NCBI RefSeq assembly: GCF_001984155.1
Contig: NZ_MTQO01000052.1
Location: 496,001-560,000 of the forward strand
Length of the DNA: 64,000 bases
From: Actinosynnema sp. ALI-1.44
Lineage (GTDB): Bacteria; Actinomycetota; Actinomycetes; Mycobacteriales; Pseudonocardiaceae
Reading direction: 5' to 3'
In this document: positions 7,691 through 30,141 of the stretch, one piece after another
Position numbering within the stretch: position 1 is the first letter of the stretch
Layout: each line of letters starts with the position of its first letter
Program-made: the position numbers and the translations under genes
Notes under the pieces: generated by a model
The model's database searches: none
What the model was told of the DNA's origin: nothing
What the model saw: only the letters and a program-made list of their open reading frames with translations

Positions 7691-7956
7691 ACCCCGCTAC
7701 CGGAGATCCCGAACGCGGGCAGGCGGGGAACCGTCCTGCCCGCGTTCGGGGTACTTGCCCAGCCGGTGGCCCGACGTCGCCGCCGCGAACACCGCCGACG
7801 CGGCCAGAACCGCTGCTGCCGCGGCGAGCCCCCTCCGGAACCGTGTTTCTCACGATTCTCCCCTCGAACCCATCTGACGCGGCGGATCCGCCTTGGCCGA
7901 CCGGCCCTCGACGGCCATCCGCCGAGGAACACGAGGCTATCGCCGTTGATTGGACG
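7691..7956 (-). pseudogene. Decayed partial duplicate of the DUF4394 gene and its promoter
   Basis: This stretch repeats the signal-peptide end of the DUF4394 gene. A GTG (7853) with GAGAAACACG follows, then in a shifted frame LAAAAAVLAASAVFAAATSG matches the parent's signal peptide, and in a third frame LPAFGISGSG matches its first mature residues (LPAFGISADG). At least two frameshifts and a stop remove coding capacity, and the rest of the domain is absent. The promoter was copied too: TAGCCT at 7939-7934, a 9-nt spacer, then GTCCA-type repeats. A perfect 16-bp inverted repeat (7708-7723/7735-7750) lies in the decayed part. Confidence 0.6.
7708..7750. repeat. Perfect 16-bp inverted repeat
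   Basis: CCCGAACGCGGGCAGG (7708-7723) and its exact complement (7735-7750) are separated by 11 bases. The left arm is copied from the LPAFGI codons of the DUF4394 gene. The right arm looks like an inverted copy, so the hairpin probably arose during the rearrangement that made the remnant; it may now terminate transcription. Confidence 0.6.
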
Positions 7957-28132: not shown

Positions 28133-29164
28133 TTACCTGGCCATGAATCGCATGCTTGCCACAGTGCCCCGGACGACACGCTCCTTGATGTACGCCGCGG
28201 TCCGGCCCGTGACCATCCGTTCCTTGGGCGCGTCATCGGCGTGCAGCAGTTGGAACAGGCCGTTGTCCCGGCCGAGGCTCATGCACACCCCGGCGTACCG
28301 GAACCACAGCGGTTTGGCCTGCTTGCCGCGCAGGTCCAGCGCGATGTTCTTGCCCGCCCGCCAGCCCTGCGGGATCGCGGCGGCACAGCACATCCGCAGG
28401 TTCCCCGCCGAGTCGCCGATCGCGTAGACGTCCGGGTGGGACGTCGAACGCAACGTGTCGTCGACGTCGACCCGGTCCGCCGCGTTCAGCCTGATCCCGG
28501 CCGACGCGGCCAGCTCCGTGTTCGGGGCCATCGACGCCGCCCACACGATCACGTCGCTGTCGATGTCCGCCGGGGTGACCTTGACACCTTCCACCAGGTC
28601 GATCCCCATGCCCGCCATGGTGGAGCGGACGTAGTCGCGGCTCTTGCCCGACAGCCTCGGGCCGATCTCGCCGCCGGTCACCATCCGCACCCGCCAGTCC
28701 GGCACCTGGGTGGCCAGCTCGGTGGCGACCTCGATGCCGGTCTCGCCGCCGCCGACCACGGTCAGCTCACCCGGGCCGTCATCGAGGCGTTTACGCAGGT
28801 AGCCGGCCTTCTCGGTGGTGAAAACCCGGCCGTCGTCGGCTTCGGCGGCCCTGGTGCGGCTGCCGAGCGCATAGACGAGGCGGTCGTACGTGTGCGTCTG
28901 GCCGTCGTCGGTGCGCACCTCGCGCCGGTCGGGGTCGATGGCGGTGGCGCGGGCGGCGACGTGCCGGACCGGCTTCTTCGTGGTGAACGACGCCAGCGGG
29001 TGGGTGACGTCGGGGCGTCCCGCGGCCAGCTCGTGCCAGCGCACGCGCTCCGAGAAGCTGGCCGTCGGTGCGATCAGAGTGACATTCGCCTGGTCAGCGG
29101 CGCGCAAGGCGGCCATCAGTCCGCTGTATCCGGCTCCGAGTACGACAACACTTGGCTTAGTCAT
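28133..29164 (-). CDS. NAD(P)/FAD-dependent oxidoreductase (NDH-2-like), ECF41 partner
   Basis: A 343-residue two-dinucleotide-domain flavoprotein related to type II NADH dehydrogenases. The FAD-binding Rossmann motif is VVLGAGYSGLMAAL at the N-terminus, the NAD-binding motif is TVVGGGETGIEVATELA near residue 160, and the FAD phosphate-binding strand is HPDVYAIGDSAGN. No C-terminal membrane helix is evident. Its ATG lies 8 nt after a CGTC element of an ECF41-type promoter, and the divergent gene is an ECF41 sigma factor. ECF41 genes are typically neighboured by such oxidoreductases (the COE group). The electron acceptor is unknown. Confidence 0.88.
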   Translation of the reverse strand: MTKPSVVVLGAGYSGLMAALRAADQANVTLIAPTASFSERVRWHELAAGRPDVTHPLASFTTKKPVRHVAARATAIDPDRREVRTDDGQTHTYDRLVYALGSRTRAAEADDGRVFTTEKAGYLRKRLDDGPGELTVVGGGETGIEVATELATQVPDWRVRMVTGGEIGPRLSGKSRDYVRSTMAGMGIDLVEGVKVTPADIDSDVIVWAASMAPNTELAASAGIRLNAADRVDVDDTLRSTSHPDVYAIGDSAGNLRMCCAAAIPQGWRAGKNIALDLRGKQAKPLWFRYAGVCMSLGRDNGLFQLLHADDAPKERMVTGRTAAYIKERVVRGTVASMRFMAR

Positions 29165-29172
29165 GCCATACA

Positions 29173-29200
29173 GACGACAGAGACCCCACAAGGTGTGACA
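29173..29200 (-). promoter_or_regulatory. ECF41-type promoter of the FAD oxidoreductase gene
   Basis: Minus-strand TGTCACA (29200-29194), a 17-bp spacer and CGTC (29176-29173), then 8 nt to ATG 29164. TGTCACA and CGTC are the -35 and -10 elements described for ECF41 sigma factors. Confidence 0.8.
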
Positions 29201-29208
29201 TTGACCTG

Positions 29209-29236
29209 TGTCACACCCGGCGGGGGCTGTCTCGTC
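29209..29236 (+). promoter_or_regulatory. ECF41-type promoter of the sigma-factor gene (autoregulation)
   Basis: TGTCACA (29209-29215), a 17-bp spacer and CGTC (29233-29236), then 8 nt to ATG 29245. It mirrors the opposite-strand promoter. The outer 16 bp (CATGCCATACAGACGA at 29162-29177) are repeated exactly in inverse at 29233-29248. Confidence 0.8.
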
Positions 29237-29244
29237 TGTATGGC

Positions 29245-30141
29245 ATGAGCGATGAAACGGAGCTGGCTGCGGCGTACACGCGGGCACGTCCACGTCTGGT
29301 GCGAGTCGCCTACGCCGTGACAGGCAGCGTCGCCGAGGCCGAGGACGTCGTGTCCGACTGCTGGCTACGGCTGGTCGCCGCGCACAAAACCGCACCGGTG
29401 CACGACATCGAGTCGTGGGCCACGGTGACGGTCGCGCGACGGGCGTTGGACACGCTGCGGTCGGCGCGTGTGCGCCGGGAGACGTACGTGGGGTCGTGGC
29501 TGCCGGAGCCGTGGGTCGAGTCGCCGGACCCGGCCGACCGGGTCACGCTCGACGACCAGGTCAGCTTCGCGCTCATGGTCGTGCTGGAACGCCTCAGCCC
29601 GACCGAGCGCACCGCATGGGTGCTGCACGACGTGTTCGGCATGGAATTTCCCGAGGTCGCGCGGATCGTGGGCCGGTCGTCGGCCGCTGTCCGGCAGCTC
29701 GCGGCACGGGCCCGCAAGCACGTCGCCGACGGCACGCCACGTGTCCGGGTCGATCACGGCACGCACGAGGCGGTGGTGGCCGCGTTCAAACTCGCCGCCA
29801 CACAAGGGGATCTGCCCGCACTGATGAGCGTGCTGGATCCCGACGTGACGCTGACGAGCGACGGCGGCGGCCAGGTGGCCGCGATCCGCCACCCGTTGCA
29901 CGGCGCCGAACAGGTCGCCCGGTTCATGGTGATCGGCATGGGCATGCTGGCAGAGGCGGGTCACGACCTGGCGATCGAGCTGGTCAACGGCCGCCCGGGG
30001 CTGGTGATCACCGGCGCTGGCAAGTACGACTCGGTCATCTCGCTGACCGTCGACGGCGGTGTCGTGTCCAGAGTGGACGTGGTGCGCGCGCCGGACAAGC
30101 TCGCGATCACCCGGCGACTTCGTGCCTGGCGGTCGCCCTGA
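29245..30141 (+). CDS. ECF41-family RNA polymerase sigma factor with C-terminal SnoaL-like domain
   Basis: A 298-residue extracytoplasmic-function sigma factor (SigJ/ECF41 type). Region 2 (about 15-75) includes AEAEDVVSDCWLRL and region 4 (about 108-160) includes LSPTERTAWVLHDVFGMEFP. The linker carries WLPEP (85-89). A fused SnoaL-like domain of about 120 residues follows, with DGGGQ (206-210, family DGGGK) and APDKL near the end (family NPDKL). These are the three ECF41 hallmark motifs; the extra domain tunes activity in place of an anti-sigma factor. Its own promoter has the ECF41 elements. The 3' end overlaps a convergent gene by 35 bp. Confidence 0.93.
   Translation: MSDETELAAAYTRARPRLVRVAYAVTGSVAEAEDVVSDCWLRLVAAHKTAPVHDIESWATVTVARRALDTLRSARVRRETYVGSWLPEPWVESPDPADRVTLDDQVSFALMVVLERLSPTERTAWVLHDVFGMEFPEVARIVGRSSAAVRQLAARARKHVADGTPRVRVDHGTHEAVVAAFKLAATQGDLPALMSVLDPDVTLTSDGGGQVAAIRHPLHGAEQVARFMVIGMGMLAEAGHDLAIELVNGRPGLVITGAGKYDSVISLTVDGGVVSRVDVVRAPDKLAITRRLRAWRSP

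Follow-up and report, generated by a model that had tools for sequence, protein, structure and literature searches.

The ECF41 group of extracytoplasmic function (ECF) sigma factors was described together with its COE genes by Wecke et al. (2012; PMC3426412), whose main text defines a WLPEP motif in the linker, along with three unnamed C-terminal motifs. Promoters there follow the consensus TGTCACA-n16-CGTC with a spacer of 16 +/- 1, and a single target locus is given for each ECF41 sigma factor tested. Table 4 of that paper places 55 of 373 ECF41 genes divergent to a COE gene, and of these 55 pairs, 36 have the motif before the ECF gene and 41 have it before the COE gene. Restraint of an ECF sigma factor by a SnoaL-like domain is also part of what is known of the family (PMC8999054). 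Here we analyse a 64,000-nt stretch of contig NZ_MTQO01000052.1 from Actinosynnema sp. ALI-1.44 (hereafter the window; all coordinates without a contig label are positions in it), in which a sigma gene and an oxidoreductase gene are read away from each other from mirrored ECF41-type promoters. The divergent region is an ECF41 module of known arrangement, and a tidy example of one. We consider it likely that the module works as a unit in which the sigma factor would feed back on its own gene, both mRNAs would be leaderless, polymerases would compete for the site, and, least certainly, the promoter arms would have been copied onto each other by template switching.

Mirrored promoters and the genes beside them

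An earlier note on this DNA, made from the sequence alone, had described TGTCACA, a 17-bp spacer, CGTC, 8 nt and an ATG on each strand, and had identified the pair as ECF41 consensus promoters. Direct reading of the sequence confirms this arrangement (Table 1), with the A of the ATG at 29164 on the minus strand and at 29245 on the plus strand. Both promoters agree with the published target consensus, the spacers here being 17. The note had also reported exact inverse copies of 16 bp at the outer ends, starting at 29162; the identity is indeed exact, but the copies are 17 bp long and start at 29161. Each of these arms spans the -10 element, the following 8 nt and the start codon. An ATG at 29240 was considered as a regulatory mini-ORF (open reading frame) and rejected; because it reads only ATG-GCA-TGA and is absent from the sister genome G002, the start of the sigma gene was set at 29245.

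The pattern TGTCACA-N15-18-CGTC occurs twice in the window, both times in the divergent region, whereas shuffled sequences gave a mean of 0.27 matches and reached two in 4 of 100 cases. Perfect inverted repeats of at least 16 bp with a gap of at most 100 bp also number two, against none at all in 20 first-order Markov simulations; the other one, of 16 bp with a short gap, lies at 7708-7750. As single-stranded DNA, the 88-nt divergent region folds into a single long hairpin (-32.9 kcal/mol, z -9.2), and its counterpart in G002 likewise forms one hairpin (z -8.5).

Table 1. Features of the divergent module, in window coordinates
Feature	Position	Strand	Details
ECF41/SigJ-type sigma factor, 298 aa	29245..30141	+	sigma2, WLPEP linker, sigma4, SnoaL-like C-terminal extension (DGGGQ, APDKL)
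Pyr_redox_2 FAD/NAD(P)-dependent oxidoreductase, 343 aa	28133..29164	-	presumed COE-type partner/target
S-adenosylmethionine-dependent methyltransferase, PF04672	27270..28109	-	23 nt behind the oxidoreductase gene, same strand
ECF41-type promoter, sigma gene	29209..29236	+	TGTCACA 29209-29215, N17, CGTC 29233-29236; TGTCACACCCGGCGGGGGCTGTCTCGTC
ECF41-type promoter, oxidoreductase gene	29173..29200	-	TGTCACA 29200-29194, N17, CGTC 29176-29173; TGTCACACCTTGTGGGGTCTCTGTCGTC
Left arm of perfect 17-bp outer inverted repeat	29161..29177		TCGTCTGTATGGCATGA on the minus strand
Right arm of perfect 17-bp outer inverted repeat	29232..29248		TCGTCTGTATGGCATGA on the plus strand
8-bp centre separating the back-to-back -35 elements	29201..29208

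The identification of the gene at 29245 as an ECF41 sigma factor is borne out by family models. Its product matches PF04542 (sigma2) and PF08281 (sigma4), scores 315.9 bits against NF007214 (the NCBIfam model for SigJ; cut-off 271) and aligns with SigJ in PDB 5xe7 over residues 11-263 (E 1.8e-49); against TIGR02957, it reaches 295.4 bits, below the cut-off of 323.25. About 138 residues follow sigma4, and the family criterion is a C-terminal extension of about 100 amino acids. Pfam SnoaL_2 gives only 16.5-18.9 bits (cut-off 27), which counts against this part of the assignment, and the SnoaL-like label is therefore taken from the SigJ match. The motifs WLPEP, DGGGQ and APDKL are present in the translation, as the note had said; paralogues in the same genome (G000; 11.7 Mb in 54 contigs) show DGGGK/L/V and NPDKL/NPEKL in a simple pattern search. 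The motif names DGGGK and NPDKL, which the note had given for the family, do not occur in the main text of PMC3426412.

The note's choice of the oxidoreductase as partner gene fits its Pyr_redox_2 match. Its best match in the PDB is the NADH dehydrogenase-like protein YjlD (E 2e-18), and we infer that it is of the same COE type as in PMC3426412. The sigma gene thus has this oxidoreductase and the PF04672 methyltransferase as neighbours, in line with the ECF41 pattern of a COE gene next door and no anti-sigma gene. The 140-aa gene behind the sigma gene, on the opposite strand, has no Pfam match. A search for relatives of the oxidoreductase in the genome_contigs collection returned 46 stretches matching a peptide pattern, none of which was confirmed as a relative.

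Mirrored promoters of this kind are found elsewhere. In a scan of 394 genomes from the class, a mirrored TGTCACA pair accompanied by at least one CGTC was matched 35 times in 23 genomes, against 4 for the reversed pattern. Both arms are complete in 10 of the 394, and G000 has two such sites. The second (C22:78139-78216; L003/L004) has 24 bp between its -35 elements and adjoins another SigJ-type sigma gene. A stricter scan of genome_contigs, requiring two complete arms and a centre of 7-10 bp, gave 20 stretches, including records from Nonomuraea, Mycolicibacter, Conexibacter, Acidobacteria and Chloroflexi; in 12 of them the fetched DNA matches the window sigma at E 1e-5. No such match was found at that threshold in the fetched DNA of the Chloroflexi stretches and of the Mycolicibacter ones (L160, L167, L169, L174, with complete mirrored TGTCACA/CGTC pairs). 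The note had called the symmetry of the region unusual. With Table 4 of Wecke et al. in view, mirrored promoters are not rare in ECF41; it is the exact identity of the 17-bp arms that is unusual.

A recurring spacing of eight nucleotides

At ECF promoters, transcription starts about 7-9 nt after CGTC. With the ATG at 8 nt, no leader or almost none is predicted on either side of the locus, and the distance is too short for a leader with a ribosome-binding site. We surveyed this spacing in 150 genomes of the family. A promoter pattern ending in GGCATG gave 24 matches in 21 genomes, in 15 of which the ATG lies exactly 8 nt after CGTC. The less specific pattern with ATGA matched 73 times in 51 genomes, with 25 distances possible; of the 73, 21 fall at 8 nt, the next highest distance being 6 nt with nine, and the reversed control yielded 22 in all, fewer than one per distance. 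Nine of the 21 are the window-type locus in five genomes of the genus, so that not all are independent; the other 12 come from eleven genomes of four other genera. In six relatives of the sigma factor with 50-52% identity (L036, L064-L068), a GTG in frame with the sigma gene lies 8 nt after CGTC, and L039 has an in-frame ATG at 7 nt.

The recurrence of the 8-nt spacing in the family suggests that these mRNAs are leaderless or nearly so. Nearly leaderless mRNAs had been proposed in the note; the survey makes them likelier, with the 5' ends themselves still predicted from the spacing. In Mycobacterium tuberculosis, 26% of the genes with a primary start are leaderless (PMC3898074).

Several observations weigh against this prediction. 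The ECF41 promoters mapped by rapid amplification of cDNA ends (5'-RACE) in B. licheniformis and R. sphaeroides have leaders of 22/23 nt with ribosome-binding sites (PMC3426412). Of the two nearest sigma factors outside the genus, L062 (62% identity) lacks a promoter of this type within 300 nt, and the one at L063 (55%) comes with a longer leader and no start codon 8 nt after CGTC. Longer leaders also occur at L034 and L077, and the second mirrored pair of G000 has an ordinary leader on its sigma side. Across 44 sigma rows, which include the window locus twice, 13 have such a promoter within 300 nt and 31 have none. 

The word "leaderless" does not occur in the main text of PMC3426412, and no mention of an 8-nt spacing was found there; a literature search combining leaderless, ECF sigma factor and divergent promoter found nothing, other wordings not having been searched. 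Two further compact divergent ECF41-type pairs were seen in the genus (G003:C49:26734-26826 and G006:C1:8104291-8104383); in these, both sides show GGTATGA, and ATGA stands 10 nt after CGTC.

Arm identity in two sister genomes

Eight congeneric genomes (G000-G007) were compared. In G000 both arms read CGTCTGTATGGCATGA, and in G002 both read CGTCTGTACTGCATGA, so that each arm differs between the genomes by the same two substitutions. Between these genomes the sigma factor is 92% and the oxidoreductase 85% identical, with differences at 42 of 189 and 46 of 186 fourfold sites, respectively. Differences in the sigma gene number 16, 8 and 62 at codon positions 1, 2 and 3, a distribution that shows purifying selection on it between these two genomes. 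Within G003 and within G004, the arms are not identical, the bases before GGCATGA being TTCAC/TAGGA and TTGAG/CAGGA. Arm identity therefore probably arose on the line of G000 and G002. These comparisons suggest that the two arms change together. If they truly do, the regulator and its target would stay tuned without selection on each promoter separately.

We considered four ways in which identity between arms could have arisen. First, the symmetry could be the relic of a recent inverted duplication that made the second promoter. The near-identity of the arms would fit such an origin, as would the genome G273 (L096), whose arms share 22 of 27 positions where the window's share 21. But in G003 and G004 both promoters exist although their arms have diverged, so the pair seems older than the split between G000 and G002; moreover, a relic should drift apart, yet the arms change in step while the fourfold sites around them diverge. 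We regard a duplication relic as unlikely. Second, exact symmetry could itself be selected, with the outer repeat serving as the operator of a dimeric regulator or the region acting as a cruciform. The perfect 17-bp arms, the hairpins of both genomes and the joint difference of both arms between them point this way. However, G003 and G004 keep both promoters with non-identical arms, which shows that the arrangement can do without symmetry; an operator overlapping -10 elements and start codons, as these arms do, would be oddly placed; and mirrored -35 elements would form the core of a hairpin in any case. Selected symmetry thus seems improbable as well.

Third, the arms could be held alike by promoter constraint, the same sigma factor and the same leaderless start acting on both, while the two shared substitutions arose independently by coincidence. 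GGCATGA at 8 nt recurs in the lineage, which leaves only about five free bases per arm, and the concerted change comes from a single informative pair of genomes, a fact that weighs against our own reading. On the other side, if each arm independently took two changes among eight free sites, we roughly estimate the chance that sites and bases agree between the arms at about 1 in 250 (1/28 x 1/9), and identity over all 12 downstream bases was reached in none of 992 comparisons between arms of different loci. Coincidence under constraint is a possible explanation, though not one that we would call probable.

The wider comparison of arms bears on the same question. From 48 mirrored loci, 32 were retained, after dropping those without the consensus on one arm and repeats of one site; sites that probably reflect chance or coding sequence, L158 and L171 among them, were kept. 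Identity at 12 of 12 downstream bases is confined to G000 and G002. Across all 27 positions compared, the arms match at 22 in G273, 21 in G000, 19 in G002 and 18 in Nonomuraea ceibae, in the last mostly in the spacers. At 27 of the 32 loci, at most six of the 12 bases after CGTC are common to both arms, so that extensive identity after CGTC is the exception among mirrored loci, a further point against our reading. The mean arm match is 11.2 of 27 within loci versus 9.0 across loci, and none of 5000 permutations reached the observed total. We take this as weak grounds for the view that the arms of mirrored ECF41 promoters generally resemble each other more than expected, because the two arms of a locus have composition and relatedness in common and one genus contributes several of the loci. 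We also considered whether the arms hold an extended recognition sequence of a larger regulon and rejected this: CGTCTGTANNGCATG is confined to the two arms in G000 and the two in G002, the six other congeners lack it, and the reversed control gave 2 matches in the eight genomes. In G273 (L096/L115), both arms of a mirrored ECF41 promoter share GGCTACGTCGTCAACAGGGC, unlike those of its congeners, and this looks like another homogenised pair.

Fourth, template switching between the arms of an inverted repeat is described as producing arm homogenisation and paired substitutions (PMC8604942, PMC8794818). We propose, tentatively and with considerable doubt, that in quasi-palindromic divergent promoters the arms are copied onto each other in this way, which would keep the promoters of regulator and target identical automatically. 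G000 and G002 would be one case of such switching during replication, and G273 and Nonomuraea ceibae possible further ones. If true, this would amount to concerted evolution of the input and output of a feedback loop.

Proposed feedback, sister sigma factors and known systems

An intact pair of sigma and oxidoreductase genes is present only in G000 and G002 among the eight genomes. G003 keeps both promoters, but what is left of its sigma gene is a 123-aa frame, from which much of sigma2, sigma4 and the C-terminal domain is missing. G004 also keeps both, with weak scraps but no piece of the sigma gene at E 1e-3, and G001 keeps the oxidoreductase promoter, with no mirror site and no adjoining sigma match. 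Full-length sigma matches in G001, G003 and G004 reach no more than 51-52% identity. No close oxidoreductase was found in G005-G007, where the best matches have 38-45% identity. In the compared stretch, G004 (L123) is identical to Kibdelosporangium aridum DSM 43828 (L161); there, the sigma-side start, reading MSDEAQ, is followed by a short frame that runs into an apparent gene for a small membrane protein, and the promoter may have passed to this gene. The record L157 (JOAA01000036.1) bears the title Rhodococcus rhodnii NRRL B-16535, probably wrongly: it is identical in the compared stretch to G003, a genome placed in the genus of the window.

Autoregulation by the adjacent sigma factor is plausible. 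In G003, G004 and G001, however, the oxidoreductase promoter is present without an intact adjacent sigma gene, and presumably another sigma factor is able to drive it. Cross-talk is thus a serious rival to private autoregulation: the promoters could be served mainly by other ECF41 sigma factors, the adjacent one being one of several interchangeable members of a shared network. G000 encodes ten sigma factors above the SigJ cut-off, and four more at 240-262 bits, and sites of the same consensus stand beside other SigJ-type sigma genes (L003/L004, L014, L021). Together with the promoters kept in G003 and G004, these ten mean that a private loop is not proven. Against a shared network, the sigma gene is intact in G000 and G002 and differs mostly at third positions, which indicates that it is maintained, and each ECF41 factor tested by Wecke et al. 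had a single target locus. We consider a shared network possible, although we do not favour it over feedback by the adjacent factor. The gutted gene and kept promoters of two congeners provide a natural experiment on how private such loops are.

A genome-wide motif search had been suggested in the note as a way to define the regulon, and it works poorly here. It gave 29 matches in G000 against 14 for the reversed pattern; on checking open reading frames, about eight appeared promoter-like by judgement (L003, L004, L010, L014, L016, L021, L025, L026). We rejected these matches as a regulon of the window sigma, since sites cannot be assigned among ten SigJ-type factors. Equal firing in both directions, also proposed earlier, is unsupported, and the -35 elements, only 8 bp apart, make competition likelier.

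Based on these comparisons, we propose the following scheme. As in its family, the sigma factor would be held in check by its SnoaL-like C-terminal domain until a signal releases it. RNA polymerase with the released factor, or with a sister ECF41 sigma, would then read both TGTCACA-N17-CGTC promoters. The plus transcript would yield more sigma factor, a positive feedback, and the minus transcript would yield the oxidoreductase, probably along with the methyltransferase encoded behind it. The mRNAs on both sides would begin at or within a few nucleotides of the AUG, and two polymerases would probably compete for the site because their -35 elements are so close. The shared GGCATGA and 8-nt spacing would be a habit of this promoter lineage. 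As the least certain step, the identity of the remaining arm bases would probably come from copying between arms, through template switching on the hairpin, rather than from a need for equal firing. Such a module would be a compact natural two-way switch, and it carries a clear prediction: in both directions, mRNAs without a leader, at a constant spacing of 8 nt.

The methyltransferase gene is possibly the second gene of the minus-strand operon. It is kept in G002 at 90% identity and was not found by tblastn at the oxidoreductase loci of G003, G004 and G001 (L122-L124). Distant relatives (32-34%) of this PF04672-type methyltransferase lie directly upstream of sigma relatives of 51-52% identity at L036, L064, L065 and L067, so that the methyltransferase and this branch of sigma factors have been neighbours more than once.

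Compared with described systems, the locus is closest to the ECF41/COE module of PMC3426412, with which it shares a SigJ-like sigma factor, the WLPEP linker, a C-terminal extension, an oxidoreductase neighbour, the promoter consensus and the divergent layout. It differs in its 17-bp spacers, the 8 nt between CGTC and ATG where mapped leaders there are longer, and the perfect 17-bp outer repeat. M. tuberculosis SigJ (PDB 5xe7) resembles the window sigma in sequence and in domain order, with a match that stops before the last 35 residues of the latter. The template-switching accounts cited above concern yeast coding DNA and RNA genes and not divergent promoters; homogenised arms and paired substitutions are common to those cases and to G000/G002. 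Finally, the PhyR/NepR-EcfG module of alphaproteobacteria (PMC8103513) likewise consists of two divergent units, both with promoters of the same stress response, giving amplification; it belongs to another sigma group and includes an anti-sigma factor and a response regulator, whereas no such partners are seen at the window locus.

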